Below are positions 539 through 9,898 of a DNA stretch of 10,939 nt, in pieces (positions within the stretch are counted from its first letter, which is position 1; each line of letters opens with the position of its first letter). The notes below the pieces were generated by a model. That model saw only the letters and a list, made by a program, of their open reading frames with translations, did not search any database and was not told the DNA's origin. Source of the DNA: Verrucomicrobiota bacterium. Lineage in GTDB: Bacteria > Verrucomicrobiota > Verrucomicrobiia > Opitutales > Seribacteraceae. Made by a program: the position numbers and the translations under genes. The stretch covers positions 1-10,939 of the forward strand of contig JACNJI010000371.1 of NCBI GenBank assembly GCA_014382645.1. The letters are read 5' to 3'.

Positions 539-835
539 TTAGTTGTACTGTTTCAAGTAAGAAATTTCCATTCGAAAACGATTATCAGGCTTCACGGGAA
601 GAGCATTTTCAATATGTGGAAGAGGTGGTATTCCCTTTACAGTCGCGTTCTCCTTTTTCTTACCGGGCTTGCGTTCCTTTCGATTTTTGTTTTTTGAATT
701 ACCTCCCGGTGAGGATTTCATAACGCTTTCCGATGCCGACAAAACATTCGAAAATTTCTTCTTTTGAGCGAAAGCAAAATCAGACAGCAAAAAGGCAATT
801 GAACAAAGGGAAATCAAATTTTTCATGGGAAACAT
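539..835 (-). CDS. Possible small secreted, strongly basic protein of unknown function
   Basis: Translation gives 98 residues. The first about 24 look like a Sec signal peptide: a Lys near the start (MFPMKN), a hydrophobic core (LISLCSIAFLLSDFAFA) and an Ala-x-Ala-type cleavage site before a Gln. The mature part is rich in Lys, Arg, Asn and Ser (for example KNKNRKERKPGKKKEN), with no recognisable domain. Translation could begin at the first Met (835) or the fourth residue (826), which gives a more usual signal peptide; neither has a clear ribosome binding site. The opposite strand is also open here, but its product lacks a sensible architecture. It could be a genuine small exported protein or the decayed N-terminus of a larger one. 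The signal peptide is the only real support. I do not recognise a family. Confidence 0.38.
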   Translation of the reverse strand: MFPMKNLISLCSIAFLLSDFAFAQKKKFSNVLSASESVMKSSPGGNSKNKNRKERKPGKKKENATVKGIPPLPHIENALPVKPDNRFRMEISYLKQYN

Positions 836-2585: not shown

Positions 2586-3971
2586 TTAGCGGGCCCGCAA
2601 GTTCGAAAACACTTTCCCGGTGGGTTTTGCCGGTAGCGTACCCCGCCATTCGTCGAGCAAGTGTAGCAATTCCTTCACCACCTTTGGGTTCTTCTCCTTA
2701 AGATCGCTCTTCTCGTAGGGATCGGCGACCAGATCAAAGAGTTCCCAATGGGTGCCTTTAAAGTTGGTCACGAGCTTCCATTGGTCCTTCGCCACGGCAT
2801 AGGACACCCAATGGTCGGGCTTGGATGAGCGAGCGGGCCATGGGGCGCCTATTTTCCAAAACAGGGGTTTTTCACGAAGGGCGCTCCCCTTCCCCTTCAG
2901 GGTCTCGACTTGGCTCACACCGTCCGGCTTATAAGATGCGGGCAACTTGACTCCCGCGATTTCGCAAAAGGTCGGAAGGAGATCCACCGCGGAAAAAATG
3001 GCCGTCTTGTCCACTTTTCCCACGGCCACCTTCCCCGGCCAACGAGCAATGAAAGGCACCCCGACCCCTCCCTCCAAAAGGGCCCCTTTGTAGGCTCGCC
3101 GACCGCCGGTAATTCCTTTGGCAGCAGCTATTCCGTAACCCGGTCCGGTTGCAGAGTCATAAGACAAAGTAAGCTTGGAGTCCGCGCTCCCTCGAGCAGG
3201 TCCATTGTCGGAGCTAAAGATGACCAGGGTGCTGTCAGTTAACCTTAGACGATCCAGAGTATCAAGCAGTTGGCCGATTCTTAGGTCGGCATGAAACAAG
3301 GTCGCCGCGTAAATATTGTGTTTCTCGTCCAGCTTGGGAAATAGCTTCTGCAGCTTGGGGTCTACGTGAAAGGGAGTGTGTGGTTCGTGCATCCAGAGGT
3401 TGATGAAGAACGGCTTTCCTTGGGCATGGCTTTTCTCGATGAAGGGGATGGCGCTCTTGACGTCGTCATGAACGAACATTTGGGGACCCGAACAATTGAA
3501 TGCCCCGTAGTCATCGTAGCCGTACTCGCTCGGAAAGGGAGCGTCGGGAATCATGTCGTTGGCCAAATGCCACTTTCCGTAATGGGCGGTGGCATAGCCT
3601 CCTTTTTGAAGAAATCGGGAAAGCAGAGGGGCCCGTGGGTCGAGCCAGTCCGGCATGTTGCGCTTAGCATTGCTGGGTACCCATGCAAAGTGACCATCGA
3701 TGTTGTATCGAGCTGGGAAATGCCCGGTCATGACGGCCGTCCGACTGGGCGAACACACTCCGCTGGCAACGGTGAAACGATGAAAGTCGGTCCCCTCCTT
3801 GGCCAAGCGGTCGATATTGGGTGTCTTCAGGTAGGGATGGCCATGGCATCCTAGGTCCCCCCAGCCCCAGTCATCGGCAAAAATGAAGACGATGTTGGGC
3901 CGCTTCGCAGCTTGAACCGAAGAGATCGCCAAGGAGAAAGCAAAGACGCAGGATGTGAGCCATTTTTTCAT
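2586..3971 (-). CDS. Secreted sulfatase, arylsulfatase / N-acetylgalactosamine-6-sulfatase-like, apparently intact
   Basis: The 461-residue product begins with a clear signal peptide (about 1-22, ending VQAA). The alkaline-phosphatase-fold sulfatase core has every element expected: the metal-binding pair Asp33-Asp34 in FADDWGWGDLG, the formylglycine motif CSPSR with Cys73 and Arg77, YGKWH at 131-135 (Lys133, His135), MHEPHTPF with His198, and SSDNG with Asp255-Asn256. The C-terminal subdomain ends with the usual WELFDLVADPYEKSDL pattern. Cys73 must be converted to formylglycine by a maturase encoded elsewhere. The enzyme hydrolyses sulfate esters, probably on a glycan; the exact substrate cannot be read from sequence. 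Its ATG overlaps the TGA of the upstream sulfatase by four bases (ATGA), and no Shine-Dalgarno is seen, which suggests translational coupling. It is the only one of the four sulfatases here with no visible defect. Confidence 0.93.
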   Translation of the reverse strand: MKKWLTSCVFAFSLAISSVQAAKRPNIVFIFADDWGWGDLGCHGHPYLKTPNIDRLAKEGTDFHRFTVASGVCSPSRTAVMTGHFPARYNIDGHFAWVPSNAKRNMPDWLDPRAPLLSRFLQKGGYATAHYGKWHLANDMIPDAPFPSEYGYDDYGAFNCSGPQMFVHDDVKSAIPFIEKSHAQGKPFFINLWMHEPHTPFHVDPKLQKLFPKLDEKHNIYAATLFHADLRIGQLLDTLDRLRLTDSTLVIFSSDNGPARGSADSKLTLSYDSATGPGYGIAAAKGITGGRRAYKGALLEGGVGVPFIARWPGKVAVGKVDKTAIFSAVDLLPTFCEIAGVKLPASYKPDGVSQVETLKGKGSALREKPLFWKIGAPWPARSSKPDHWVSYAVAKDQWKLVTNFKGTHWELFDLVADPYEKSDLKEKNPKVVKELLHLLDEWRGTLPAKPTGKVFSNLRAR

Positions 3972-3973
3972 TT

Positions 3974-3991
3974 TTTATTTTTATTTTTATT
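3974..3991 (-). repeat. Three copies of a 6-bp AATAAA unit at the end of the upstream sulfatase
   Basis: On the minus strand the end of the sulfatase reads three tandem AATAAA units, encoding alternating Asn-Lys, followed directly by the ATGA overlap and the start of the next sulfatase. The A-rich tract is a likely site of polymerase slippage. Gain or loss of a whole unit would keep the frame. It may also keep the start of the next gene unstructured. Confidence 0.55.
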
Positions 3992-5111
3992 GGGTGAAGG
4001 GGGGCCGGAACCCCTTTTAAGATGGATCAGCCCCTTGAAAGTGGGATCGATAAGTTGAGCGGACCACTCATTGCGAAGTGCATTCAATTCGGCGAGGATT
4101 TTCGGTTTAGCCGAGGCTAGGTTACGAGTTTCACCGATGTCCTCGTCCAAGTCGTAAAGCTGGGGCTTGCCGTTCCGAAAAGGGATGACCAACTTGAAGT
4201 TTCCCTTGCGCACGGAATAGCGTTGATCATCGTATTTTCGGAGAAAAAGCACCTCGTGAGGCGAGTTTGGATTCTTGCCGACAAGATAAGGAACGAGATT
4301 CACTCCATCAAGGGGCTTGTCCTTGTCCACCTTGGCTCCGGACAGGGCGACCATAGTGGCGGCGAAATCGAGAGAGGAAACGGGGTGGTCATATGTTTTC
4401 CCCGCTGGCAAGGTTCCTTTCCATTGCAGGGCGAAAGGAACCCGATGCCCCCCTTCCCACACATCTCCCTTGGCCCCGTGCAAAGGGGTGTTGCTGGATG
4501 CGTTCTTGGTGATTGGTCCACCATTGTCGGAGAGGAAGCCCACGATGGTTTTCTCCTCTAGCTTGTTCTCGCGGAGGCTTTTGAGAAGGAGCCCTACCCC
4601 ATCGTCTATGGCGCTCACCATGGCGGCATAGGTTTTTCGCTTGGGGTCCTTTATATGAGTAAAACGATTGAGGTATTTGGCGGTCGCCTGCAAAGGGGTA
4701 TGAGGGGCGTTATAGGAAAGAAAGAGAAAGAACGGCTTGTCCTTGTTTCGCTCCACGAAGAAGACCGCCTCGTCTGAAAATTCATCGGTCAAGTATTTGC
4801 GAGGAGGCACCGGGGTATAATTCTTCAGAATCCAAGTCCGATAACTTTCCCCCTCGCCCTTGGCTTTGGCGCCGTCCTTGATCACGAGGTCTTCCGGCAT
4901 GTACTTGTGTCCCCCTCCGAGGTGCCCGTAGAACTCGTTGAAGCCGCGCTTCATAGGATGACTGGTGGGGGCATGGGCTCCGAGATGCCATTTGCCAATT
5001 ATGCCCGAATGGTAACCTACGGGAGCCAACAACTCGGCAATGGTCTTCTCCTTGCGGGTGAGACCCATATCTGGATCATTAGGCTGGTACTGCGGGTTAC
5101 GCTCGAACCCA

Positions 5112-5131
5112 AAACGCTGTTGGTAGCGCCC
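5112..5131 (-). other. mRNA hairpin downstream of the TGA codon (SECIS-like position, non-canonical loop)
   Basis: In the mRNA, GCGCU pairs with AGCGU (5125-5129 with 5114-5118) and is extended by two further G-U pairs, around a 6-base loop ACCAAC. The stem starts 27 nt after the TGA, within the distance used by bacterial SECIS elements. The loop has no G, which bacterial SECIS apical loops normally carry near their start. A competing CCGG/CCGG stem (5142-5145 with 5130-5133) lies closer to the TGA. The bases encode a conserved protein stretch, so the pairing may be incidental. Confidence 0.2.
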
Positions 5132-5158
5132 GGTTATGAATCCGGCTCGAGACGGACC

Positions 5159-5161
5159 TCA
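5159..5161 (-). other. TGA in place of the formylglycine cysteine codon
   Basis: On the minus strand the codons run TCC GTG TGA GGT CCG TCT CGA, read as Ser-Val-stop-Gly-Pro-Ser-Arg. TGA is one base from both Cys codons (TGT, TGC). TGA also ends the CBM9-like gene (362-364) and this sulfatase itself (3968-3970), so any recoding would have to be site-specific. Confidence 0.9.
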
Positions 5162-5368
5162 CACGGAATAGGAAACGTATCCGTTGGTGCAGCGAACGCC
5201 ATTTGATGCAATGGAGTCGATATTGGGGGTGGGGATATCCTTACATCCGTTGAAGCCGACGTCCGAATACCCAAGATCGTCGGTCGTGATGACGATCAAG
5301 TTGGGGGCAGCCGTCTCAACAACCGCATAAAAAACAACCGGCAATAAAAGGAGAGAGCGAAAATCCAT

Positions 5369-5606: not shown

Positions 5607-7172
5607 ATGAAGAAAACAACGATAATTCACTTATTTGCAGCACTTTGCTTGTTGTTCGTCTTCGCCGCCTACGGAGCCGAAACCGAAAAGAAGCCTAATA
5701 TCCTGTTCATCTTTACCGACGACCAGTCGCATCGAACTGTAAGTTGCTATCCGGAAGCCCCCGACTGGGTGAATACGCCAAATATCGACTCCTTGGCAAA
5801 AAAAGGTATCCGCTTCGCCCATTGCTACATGGGCTCCTGGTGCATGGCATCTAGAGCAACTTTGCTCACCGGTCACCAGACCTACGGCGTCCGATCCATG
5901 CGGATGGAGGGCTAATATCCCAGCAGTAAATACGATCCCGAGCAATGCCCATTTTGGCCATCGGTCTTCCGCAAAAAAGGATACTAAACCGCTCAAATAG
6001 GGAAATGGCACACAGGAGTTGACAACGGGTATGGTCGCGATTGGGATTTTCAAAAAGTCTGGAATCGACCCGCTTTCCCTGCCAATTCCGGAAACTACTT
6101 CGATCAGCAACTGATCCAGACCAACGGGCCCAAACCGGTAATGACCCAAGGCTACTCGACCGACAACTACACCAAGTGGGCGGAAGAATACCTCCGGGGC
6201 GGTCATGGCAAAGACGAGAGCAAACCCTTCTACCTTTGGCTTTGCTACGGGGCCGTGCACGGTCCCTTCACCCCGGCCAAACGGCACTTTGGTCGTTACC
6301 CAAACTCCAAGATCGAGATCCCCGAGGACATTTACCCTCCTCGGGAAGGGAAACCAAAATATTCCCGGGAAAAAGAACAATGGATCCCTGGTCCCGATGG
6401 ATTGCCGGTCCTAAAGTCGGGCCAATTCGCCGGCCGAACGGTGAGCGGCAAGGCCATCCACGGAAACGATATCCATGCCCTCACCCGCCAATACCACCAA
6501 GGCGTCCTCGCCATCGACGAAGGGGTCGGCAAACTAATTCGGGCACTTAAGGAAACCGGGCAATACGACAACACCCTGATCGTTTTCGGGGCGGACCAAG
6601 GAATAGCCTGGGGACAACAGGGGTTCCAAATGAAACTCGCTCCCTATGACGGTACGATCCGCGGCCCTTTGATCGTCAGCATGCCCAAGCGTTTCCCTCA
6701 GGGAAAAGTTTGCCACAAACCAGTGGGTGGAGCCGACCTAGTACCCACCTTCTTCAAGACGGCTCGGCTTGAACTACCGTGGAAGATGCATGGGCGCGAC
6801 CTCACTCCACTCCTTGAAAGCCCCAAGGGGAAAGATTGGAAGTCGCCGCTTCTGCTCGCCCACACGGGCATGAGTTACGGAGAAGACTGCGACACCGTGA
6901 TAGACATGAAGGATGACCCTATCTACCAGAAGCAGGAAGTTCCTTGGTGGGTTTCCCTCCGGACCGATCGCTACAAATACATCCGCAACCTCATTCCCGG
7001 AGAAACCGAAGAGCTCTACGACATGAAGAAAGACCCCGATGAACTTACCAACTTGGCCTTCGAAGGGAAACACTCCGCTCTCCTCCGAAAGCTCAGAAAA
7101 AAAACCATTTCCGAACTTGAAAGAACGGACTGCGCCTTCGCCAAGAAAATGCCGGCAGTGCGCAAACCATAG
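5607..7172 (+). pseudogene. Secreted sulfatase interrupted by two in-frame TAA codons
   Basis: The ATG at 5607 gives a clean signal peptide (about 1-24, ending AAYGA); the in-frame ATG at 5529 would add an implausible 26-residue leader. The core is sulfatase-like: TDDQ with Asp38-Asp39, the formylglycine motif CMASR (Cys79, Arg83) followed by ATLLTGHQTYGVRSMRMEG, GKWHTG at 132-137, and ADQGIAWGQQG (Asp330-Gln331). The C-terminal part ends with the usual LYDMKKDPDELTNLA pattern. TAA occurs at codon 103 (5913-5915), between MEG and YPSSKYDPEQCPFWP, and at codon 127 (5985-5987), between KKGY and TAQIGKWH. Everything else is open in one frame for 521 positions, so inactivation looks recent, or the bases are errors. 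The family usually has an acidic residue at the first site, as I recall it, so a GAA-to-TAA change fits. A restart at 6141 would make a 343-residue fragment lacking the active site. Confidence 0.85.
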
Positions 7173-7188: not shown

Positions 7189-8538
7189 ATGAGAAAAGGG
7201 ATTTTTCCATTTATCGCTTCCTGCTTGCTAGGATTATCCCCGGTCTACGCCAAGCCGAACATTCTCTTCATCGCCATCGACGACCTTCGGCCCGAACTCG
7301 GTTGCTTTGGCGGCAAGGAGATTCGTTCCCCACACATCGACAAGTTGGCCGACCAAGGAATGGTCTTTAACCGGGCTTATTGCCAAGTTGCAGTATGCGG
7401 AGCTTCGCGGGCAAGCTTGATGACAGGGCTTCGGCCCACTTGGAAGCGTTTTCTAAAGTACGACACCTTTGCCGAAAAAGACGCTCCCGACGCCATGACT
7501 CTGCCAGAGGAATTAAGGAAGAACGGATACCATTGCATTTCCAACGGAAAGATCTTTCACCACAAGAACGACACCGGAAAACGGAGCTGGAGCGAGGACC
7601 CATGGAAACCCAGTATGGGCGAAGCCTCTTTTCTCGACCCAAAGTCAAAATCCATGATTGGCGGGCGGAAGAAGCGCGGTCCGGTTTTAGAATTCCCCGA
7701 GGTAGCCGACAGCGCATATCCGGATGGCCAAATCGCGGACAAAACCATTGACGACCTCAAGCGGATGAAAAAGAAGGACAAGCCCTTCTTTCTCGCCTGT
7801 GGGTTCATCAAGCCACACCTGCCCTTCTATGCCCCAAAAAAATACTGGGATCTTTACGACCGAGCCTCCCTCGAGCTTGCGGACAATCGTGACCGCCCAA
7901 AGGACGCTCCTTCCTCCCTCAGGGGCTCGGGCGAGATTCATAACTACCACAACCGGGGAATGAAATACAATAGCGAGGAATGGCACCGGGCATGCCTGCA
8001 CGGTTATTACGCCTGCGTAAGCTATGTCGATACACAGATCGGTAAAGTAATGAAAAGCTTGGAAGACTTGGATCTCCGGGAAAACACCATCATCGTCCTT
8101 TGGGGCAAGCACAACGTCATGCACCTGTCGACCCGCTCGCCATTGATCGTCGCCGCGCCCGGGTTCAAGTCCGGACAAGCATGCGACCGCCTAGTCGAAT
8201 TCGTCGACATCTACCCCACCCTCATGGACCTGGCCGATCTGAAGTCCGCAAACAACGGACTGGAGGGAACTAGCTTCAAGCCCCTGCTTGAAACCCCCCG
8301 TTTGAAATGGAAAAGCGCGGCTTTCTCAAAATACGGCCCAGCCAGAAGCATCGTCACCGAACAATTCAATTACGCCGAATTCAAAGACGGACAGAAAATG
8401 CTTTTCGATTTGAGTGCGGATCCTGATGAGAACGTAAATCTAGCCTCCTCGCCGGAGCACAAGAACACCCTCAATCGTTTCGGAAATATGATCAAGGATG
8501 GATGGGGCAAGATCTTGCCTCCTAAAACAAAACATTAG
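7189..8538 (+). CDS. Secreted sulfatase, iduronate-2-sulfatase-like, lacking its second metal-binding segment
   Basis: The start at 7189 is chosen because it gives a signal peptide (about 1-21, ending PVYA) and follows the previous stop by 16 bases; the frame is open further upstream, but that overlaps the preceding gene. The 449-residue product resembles iduronate-2-sulfatase-like enzymes: AIDDLRPELGCFG with Asp31-Asp32, the formylglycine motif CGASR (Cys70, Arg74), NGKIFHH (Lys121, His124), and CGFIKPHLPFYAP. The C-terminus contains the expected LVEFVDIYPTLMDLADL and LFDLSADPDENVNLA. After IIVLWG (to Gly306) the sequence jumps directly to KHNVMHLSTRSPLIV. In the family an Asp-His-Gly and about ten more residues, ending in Trp-Gly, normally stand between these blocks and hold the Asp and His that ligate calcium. 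Their absence should abolish or greatly reduce activity. Reading frame and ends are intact, so it is annotated as coding. Confidence 0.85.
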   Translation: MRKGIFPFIASCLLGLSPVYAKPNILFIAIDDLRPELGCFGGKEIRSPHIDKLADQGMVFNRAYCQVAVCGASRASLMTGLRPTWKRFLKYDTFAEKDAPDAMTLPEELRKNGYHCISNGKIFHHKNDTGKRSWSEDPWKPSMGEASFLDPKSKSMIGGRKKRGPVLEFPEVADSAYPDGQIADKTIDDLKRMKKKDKPFFLACGFIKPHLPFYAPKKYWDLYDRASLELADNRDRPKDAPSSLRGSGEIHNYHNRGMKYNSEEWHRACLHGYYACVSYVDTQIGKVMKSLEDLDLRENTIIVLWGKHNVMHLSTRSPLIVAAPGFKSGQACDRLVEFVDIYPTLMDLADLKSANNGLEGTSFKPLLETPRLKWKSAAFSKYGPARSIVTEQFNYAEFKDGQKMLFDLSADPDENVNLASSPEHKNTLNRFGNMIKDGWGKILPPKTKH

Positions 8539-8590: not shown

Positions 8591-9898
8591 ATGACTCTCC
8601 CTTTGGTTTTATCTCTTCTCTTTCTCGCACCTACGCTCTGCCTAAGCGAGTCAAGCGTTTCGTCCACAGGCTCAAAGAGTCCGAACGCTTTCGACTGGTC
8701 GAACGTGGATACCCAGCGTGGGCAATCCGAACATATCCTTGAGGCCATCAAATCTTGGCAGAGCCAAGACGGAAAAGACGGAGGGAAGAAACTGCGGGTG
8801 GTCTATTTCCACCCCAAGGACCGTCAACCGCTTAAGGATCACGCCAAGCGCTGGGATGGAATCATGAGCGATATCCAGGACTTTTACCGCACCGAGATGA
8901 AGCACCTGGGTTACGGCGAAGTTACGCTCGGGTTGGAACGTAAAAACGGCAAGCTCAAGCTCCACGAAGTCTGCGGAGCGAAGGACGACGACGGTTCCTA
9001 TTCCTACAACTCGGGAAGCAAGATCAGGGGAGAAGTCTTCGACGCCCTGCAAGCGAAGGGAATCAACCCGCAAGAGGAAACCATTCTCATCGTCTGCGGG
9101 CTTTCCCGCACCGAAGAGAAGAAGGTAACCATCTATTCCCCTTACTACGGCATGGGAGCAAACCACAATTGTGGAATCTGCTTCACCGCCGACATGGACT
9201 GGCTCTCCATCGACGGTCTCAAACCCGACCCATCGAAGACTACCCTTCAAGTCAAGGAACACCGAGGGTACGAACCCTTCACCCTCGCCCGTTTCAACAC
9301 AACTTATATTGGTGGAACCATCCACGAACTCGGTCACGGCTTGTCCCTACCCCATAACTTATCTACTAAAAAAGAGGCAATTCGCGGGACCGCCCTCATG
9401 GGAGCAGGTAACTACACTTATCGCAAGGAATGGCGTGACGAGGGCAAAGGATCCTTTCTCACCCACGCCCATGCGCTTCGCTTACTAGTTCATCCGCTCT
9501 TTAGTCAGACCACGAAGCACTCCAAAGAATCACCCAATTTAAAATACAAGAAGCTCACCATCTCCCACAGTGACGAAAAAATGCATATCCGCGGGACCGT
9601 CCAATCGGACATCCCCGCCATCGCCATGATTGCCTACAACGACGGGGAGAACAAGGGACAGCGCGGTTACATGGTGAATAACGATTACGATGCCACCACT
9701 TGGACTTCCGTTATCAATCCCAACAACGAATTCCGGATTCGCGTGGGTGACCTACGAGACGGCAACCATCAGATCCGCTTGATTAGCGTCCATGCCAACG
9801 GGACCACCGTGACCAAACGCCTGCACTACTCGATGAAGGAAGGCATGCCCGATTTCAAGCGGGCGAATCAGGAGATCGAGAACATCCTGTCCCCCTAG
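8591..9898 (+). CDS. Secreted metzincin-like zinc metallopeptidase with a C-terminal beta-rich domain
   Basis: The 435-residue product starts with a signal peptide (about 1-19). The central region holds TIHELGHGLSLPHN at 243-256. The pattern His245-Glu246, His249, His255 matches the metzincin HExxHxxxxxH zinc site, with Glu246 as general base. The usual Gly at the eighth motif position is Ser252. A Met in GTALMGAG (Met270), about 15 residues later, is a good candidate for the Met-turn. Upstream segments such as ETILIVCGLSR and YSPYYGMGANHNCGICFT are consistent with the strands of the catalytic domain. Residues about 315-420 alternate in a way that suggests an Ig-like module. I cannot name the peptidase family. 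It lies 52 bases after a sulfatase and 6 to 45 bases before a hydrolase on the same strand, so co-expression is likely. A role in cutting a glycoprotein or proteoglycan-type substrate is inference. A Shine-Dalgarno at normal spacing is not seen. Confidence 0.75.
   Translation: MTLPLVLSLLFLAPTLCLSESSVSSTGSKSPNAFDWSNVDTQRGQSEHILEAIKSWQSQDGKDGGKKLRVVYFHPKDRQPLKDHAKRWDGIMSDIQDFYRTEMKHLGYGEVTLGLERKNGKLKLHEVCGAKDDDGSYSYNSGSKIRGEVFDALQAKGINPQEETILIVCGLSRTEEKKVTIYSPYYGMGANHNCGICFTADMDWLSIDGLKPDPSKTTLQVKEHRGYEPFTLARFNTTYIGGTIHELGHGLSLPHNLSTKKEAIRGTALMGAGNYTYRKEWRDEGKGSFLTHAHALRLLVHPLFSQTTKHSKESPNLKYKKLTISHSDEKMHIRGTVQSDIPAIAMIAYNDGENKGQRGYMVNNDYDATTWTSVINPNNEFRIRVGDLRDGNHQIRLISVHANGTTVTKRLHYSMKEGMPDFKRANQEIENILSP

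Follow-up and report, generated by a model that had tools for sequence, protein, structure and literature searches.

A TGA on the formylglycine codon of a sulfatase gene from an Opitutales-related bacterium: probably a recent nonsense mutation

Formylglycine, on which type I sulfatases depend, is made by oxidising Cys or Ser. In the stretch of DNA analysed here (10,939 nucleotides, called the window throughout) a sulfatase gene on the minus strand carries an in-frame TGA in place of the Cys of its Cys-Gly-Pro-Ser-Arg motif (C-x-P-S-R). The question raised by this locus is whether the codon is translated, most obviously as selenocysteine, whether it silences the gene, or whether it exists in the organism at all. 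Were it translated as selenocysteine, the gene would represent a new selenoprotein family, and its chemistry would be unexplained given the two residues from which formylglycine arises. The source genome (G000) is a metagenome-like assembly of 3.79 Mb in 557 contigs, 88% complete, in which the window forms contig 502. The sequence-only reading of this DNA had weighed selenocysteine against a nonsense mutation and leaned toward the latter. That leaning is supported by the data presented below: the orthologues carry Cys at the position of the TGA, the genes for selenocysteine decoding are undetected in the assembly and neighbouring sulfatases carry lesions of their own. We propose that the TGA probably arose very recently, by an ordinary nonsense mutation in a conserved sulfatase of the Cys type. 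The lineage is related to the Opitutales and has a large repertoire of sulfatases.

The interrupted gene and its homologues

The reading frame extends from an ATG with its first base at 5368 to a final TGA at 3968-3970, with 466 codons before the final stop, and the TGA at codon 70 is its sole interruption, as had been noticed from the sequence (Table 1). At its 3' end the gene shares 4 bases with the beginning of the next sulfatase. The Pfam Sulfatase profile (PF00884) matches the pieces on both sides of the TGA, and by this profile, by SGSH_C (PF16347) and by the x-P-S-R motif the gene belongs to the fold family of the type I, formylglycine-dependent sulfatases; it differs from them in that the homologues have Cys or Ser at the modified residue, whereas the window gene has neither and carries a stop codon there instead.

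Table 1. Features of the window that bear on the interrupted sulfatase
Feature	Coordinates	Strand	Basis
Premature in-frame TGA (codon 70) in place of the formylglycine Cys codon	5159..5161	-	Read from sequence; homologue alignment
Interrupted sulfatase, 69 N-terminal codons	5162..5368	-	PF00884 positions 1-45
Interrupted sulfatase, remaining 396 codons and final stop	3968..5158	-	PF00884 positions 51-300; SGSH_C (PF16347)
Hairpin-folding stretch after the TGA, not a supported SECIS element	5101..5158	-	Folding versus shuffles; orthologue comparison
Neighbouring sulfatase, open, 461 codons	2586..3971	-	ORF list; Pfam
Divergent sulfatase with two TAA, at 5913-5915 and 5985-5987	5607..7172	+	Comparison with G001 and G002
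Third neighbouring sulfatase, 39 bases absent at junction 8100/8101	7189..8538	+	Comparison with G001 and G002
Short ORF similar to residues 1-93 of a 677-residue G002 ORF	539..835	-	ORF list; comparison with G002

That the TGA lies exactly on the catalytic codon is confirmed by alignment, in which every homologue examined places Cys, rarely Ser, opposite it. A search of 92 genomes, the source genome included, yielded loci for 30 of the matches listed, and the codon at this position was a Cys codon in all 29 loci other than the window (17 TGC, 12 TGT). From 149 relatives in genome_contigs 80 loci were kept, a set that overlaps with the first, and these showed Cys in 76 (45 TGT, 31 TGC), Ser in 4 and TGA in none. 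In a protein database, which could not display a TGA directly, Cys was present in 120 of 120 homologous proteins among the matches listed, of 6447. Homologues with TGA aligned to Cys, which the sequence-only reading had suggested looking for as a sign of selenocysteine, were thus found in none of the 29 or the 80 loci.

The closest orthologues, in G002 (94% identity) and G001 (93%), carry Cys and share the gene order of the window, and the two best genome_contigs loci come from records CAJQSI010000020.1 (uncultured Opitutales) and CALBIN010000013.1 (Opitutae). No intact close duplicate was seen in the source genome, where the next best own-genome matches listed reach at most 44% identity. Recurring matches that began at about query residue 180 and contained in-frame stops had suggested a conserved family of interrupted sulfatases, an idea that was dropped; of nine such loci read from other genomes, eight (G004, G007, G010, G020, G031, G032, G034 and G039) look like ordinary complete sulfatases with stops outside the gene only, the exception being the locus in G001, which is truncated.

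Like recent nonsense pseudogenes of bacteria, the window gene has a single stop in an open frame, intact syntenic orthologues against which the lesion is inactivating, and damaged neighbours; it differs from them in that the stop falls on the catalytic codon and in that its dN/dS shows no relaxation so far. Translation would stop after 69 residues, so that no active enzyme would be expected from this copy, and any product of an internal start would lack the catalytic residue. The presence of the change in the organism itself, its recent date and the loss of function of this copy are what we infer from these data.

Age of the change, damaged neighbours and the possibility of a consensus error

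The dN/dS of the TGA-bearing gene is 0.155 and 0.152 against G001 and G002, compared with 0.157 between these two relatives, and the window-to-relative values of the neighbouring genes are 0.09-0.14. As no relaxation is visible, the values fit a very young change and fit an error equally well, and a working gene would also be compatible with them; the unrelaxed frame past the stop (0.15 versus 0.16 between the relatives) is in this respect a point against the nonsense mutation.

Divergence along the contig forms a mosaic. A low-divergence tract at 3750-5160 is mostly less than 3% different from G002 and G001, and elsewhere on the contig the difference rises up to 35%. In 150-base bins the divergence from G002 is 0.7-2.7% over 3750-5100, except for 15% at bin 4350 and 5% at bin 4500; it is 9% at bin 5100, 31-34% in the next three bins and 11-29% in most bins left of 3450. 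Left of 2601 the window has almost no match in the compared stretches of G001 and G002. The TGA sits near the edge of the low-divergence tract, and between 5178 and 5075 no other codon of the window departs from G002 in the comparison made. We read the mosaic as probable recombination among relatives, although a chimeric assembly could also have produced it.

This last point bears on the main rival to a recent nonsense mutation, namely that the metagenome consensus is wrong at the TGA, through sequencing error, low coverage or a chimera of strains, and that the organism itself has Cys. Besides the mosaic, which a chimeric assembly could leave, the fragmentation of the assembly into 557 contigs speaks for such an error, and so do the flanks of the TGA, which belong to a constrained frame and in which, between 5178 and 5075, no codon shared by G001 and G002 is changed in the window. 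Against it stand the lesions in the neighbourhood, which are of varied kinds (two TAA codons, a 39-base deletion and a truncated upstream ORF) and are harder to blame altogether on error.

The sequence-only reading had described the neighbouring sulfatases as damaged too, which holds for two of them and fails for the third, the open gene at 2586-3971. At both TAA sites of the divergent sulfatase G001 and G002 have sense codons. The deletion in the gene at 7189-8538 is in-frame, and in G001 and G002 the missing bases encode a GDHG stretch, part of the sulfatase metal site. The short ORF at the left of the window corresponds to the beginning of a G002 ORF, the remainder of which has no match anywhere in the window. 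With two neighbours carrying other lesions, the sulfatase cluster is probably decaying in part in the source genome.

A scan for stops by coding potential adds a further, rough argument. In G000 it picked out 12 candidates over 420 kb, of which 302 kb lay on contigs that were not chosen at random; G003 had 4 over 329 kb, and the 84 kb of G001 and 20 kb of G002 had none. These figures serve as a rough guide only. The scan recovered one of the three known stops of the window and some of its candidates resemble ordinary gene junctions. Even so, 12 candidates against the 4 of G003 do not amount to the flood of stops that an error-ridden assembly might show. Taken with the lesions, this makes a consensus error unlikely in our judgment, though it is the alternative that we take most seriously.

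Interrupted sulfatases across the genome, one of them with another TGA in the formylglycine position

The sequence-only reading had argued that a random nonsense mutation would rarely hit this very codon. In the two Cys-bearing orthologues 157 and 155 single-base routes lead to a stop within the gene, 25 of them to TGA and one at the catalytic codon, and from these counts one random nonsense change would hit exactly this codon roughly 1 time in 155. Of 156 sulfatase candidates in the source genome 150 were scored, giving 112 matches, and nine of these contain 11 in-frame stops between them (4 TAA, 5 TGA and 2 TAG), so that one hit on a catalytic codon is not extraordinary.

In-frame stops were found in 4 of the 102 sulfatase matches of G001 versus 9 of the 112 in the source genome (Fisher p = 0.26); since the interrupted share is not significantly above that of the relative, unusual decay is not demonstrated for the source genome. 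Of the four stop-bearing matches of G001 the one that scores well, on C93, keeps its motif and is interrupted near the end of the match. For the anaerobic sulfatase-maturating enzyme (TIGR03942) the source genome gave no match, despite the 112 sulfatase matches in its 3.79 Mb. A truncated sulfatase is found both in the source genome (C233) and in G001 (C536), with translated surroundings that are identical by eye in genomes that are clearly different elsewhere; this likeness may reflect a recent transfer, or one contig binned into both genomes.

A second sulfatase of the source genome, on C295 (sites 4496-4498 and 4949-4951), also has a TGA on its formylglycine codon, at 4496; its orthologue in G001, which is 87% identical as a protein and free of stops, has Cys there. 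Considered as another selenocysteine candidate, it was ruled out because, compared with the open G001 orthologue, it has a Trp codon turned into TGA and is frameshifted by one base. Judged by these features, the C295 gene is a pseudogene in decay.

The 372 genomes of the order were searched with a DNA pattern that places TGA in one form of the motif, and 44 of them gave 48 matches. In sixteen of these the TGA is followed by codons for x-P-S/T-R; when the surroundings of each were inspected by eye, no sulfatases were found beyond the two of the source genome. Eight other clear nonsense codons are present in the sulfatases of this genome, and at 1 in 155 each a further hit on a catalytic codon is an event of about 5%. 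Two catalytic-codon stops in one genome are more than expected, which is noticeable and not compelling. The local sequence at the two TGA sites is the same at 13 of 14 bases by eye.

Together these observations, with two cases in the source genome and none by the pattern in the other 371 genomes, could mean that the formylglycine codon is a preferred target of loss in this lineage, either as a mutational hotspot or as a selected off-switch of sulfatases, and in the boldest form that UGA is decoded at the motif in a manner so far unrecognised. We regard such a reading as highly doubtful.

Selenocysteine and read-through

A sulfatase with selenocysteine at the formylglycine position is suggested by the exact placement of the TGA on the catalytic Cys of an otherwise open and constrained frame, and by the second such TGA in the same genome, although the latter gene has the Trp-codon TGA and the frameshift described above. 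The decoding machinery, which the sequence-only reading had named as a check, speaks against it. In the 88% complete source assembly neither selA nor selD gave a match, and selB gave five matches, none of them above the curated cut-off. As the same selB search produced matches in all 14 control genomes, above the cut-off in 2, the five are taken for other translation GTPases. The tRNA-Sec model gave eight matches (150 of 401 first-look candidates scored), which ARAGORN assigned to Ser (3), Leu (3), Phe (1) and Gly (1); the best, at 50.5 bits versus a gathering score of 47, is a tRNA-Ser, and no tRNA-Sec was found among them. A tRNA-Ser that ARAGORN lists with 'anticodon tga' was rejected as a decoder of TGA, for it reads the codon TCA. 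The five genomes of the genus gave no selA, one of the 42 in the family set had it, and across 92 genomes 4 gave a match above the cut-off. At this completeness the absence of any single sel gene is weak evidence and their joint absence is strong, its weight being tempered by the fact that sel genes are often clustered together.

The region after the TGA gives no more encouragement. Starting at the TGA, 61 bases fold with an energy of -18.8 kcal/mol, and 54 of 200 shuffled sequences were as stable (z = -0.58). The 63 bases after the TGA codon are matched exactly by G002 and with a single difference by G001, and as this sequence is common to Cys-bearing orthologues, no feature of the hairpin stretch is specific to the TGA. 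A SECIS hairpin just after the UGA is thus supported by neither the shuffles nor the orthologues, in agreement with the earlier view that the nearby hairpin falls short of one.

Full-text literature searches, as far as titles or the openings of abstracts tell, returned no selenocysteine sulfatase, and the word 'sulfatase' has 0 occurrences in the main text of the Sargasso Sea selenoproteome paper (PMC1088965). Planctomycetes with numerous sulfatases have been described, two of three of which have selenoproteins (PMC4807772). The window gene resembles the bacterial selenoproteins with Cys homologues, Sec/Cys pairs such as those of PMC1088965, in having TGA opposite a conserved catalytic Cys; it differs from them in that its genome yielded no decoding genes, the homologues examined have no TGA and no SECIS hairpin is supported. 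With machinery, homologues and hairpin all against it, selenocysteine is very improbable here.

Leaky read-through of the UGA by an ordinary tRNA, which would give a little full-length protein and would suit the open and constrained frame past the stop, has next to no probability, as the stop occurs in no relative examined, another TGA of the source genome replaces Trp in a frameshifted gene with no hint of rescue, and bacterial read-through of UGA mostly inserts Trp, which cannot become formylglycine.

A recent nonsense mutation is thus the reading that we favour, and the locus disposes of a tempting false positive: finding TGA where a catalytic Cys belongs does not suffice to call a selenoprotein when decoding genes, homologues and hairpin fail. 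The interest that remains is modest and lies in the loss of sulfatases by a sulfatase-rich bacterium. Outside the sulfatases, the window holds a PA14 and GDSL-lipase gene by Pfam (1191-2438) and a conserved 435-residue ORF with no Pfam match (8591-9898), in which HELGHG looks by eye like the HExxH motif of zinc metalloproteases.
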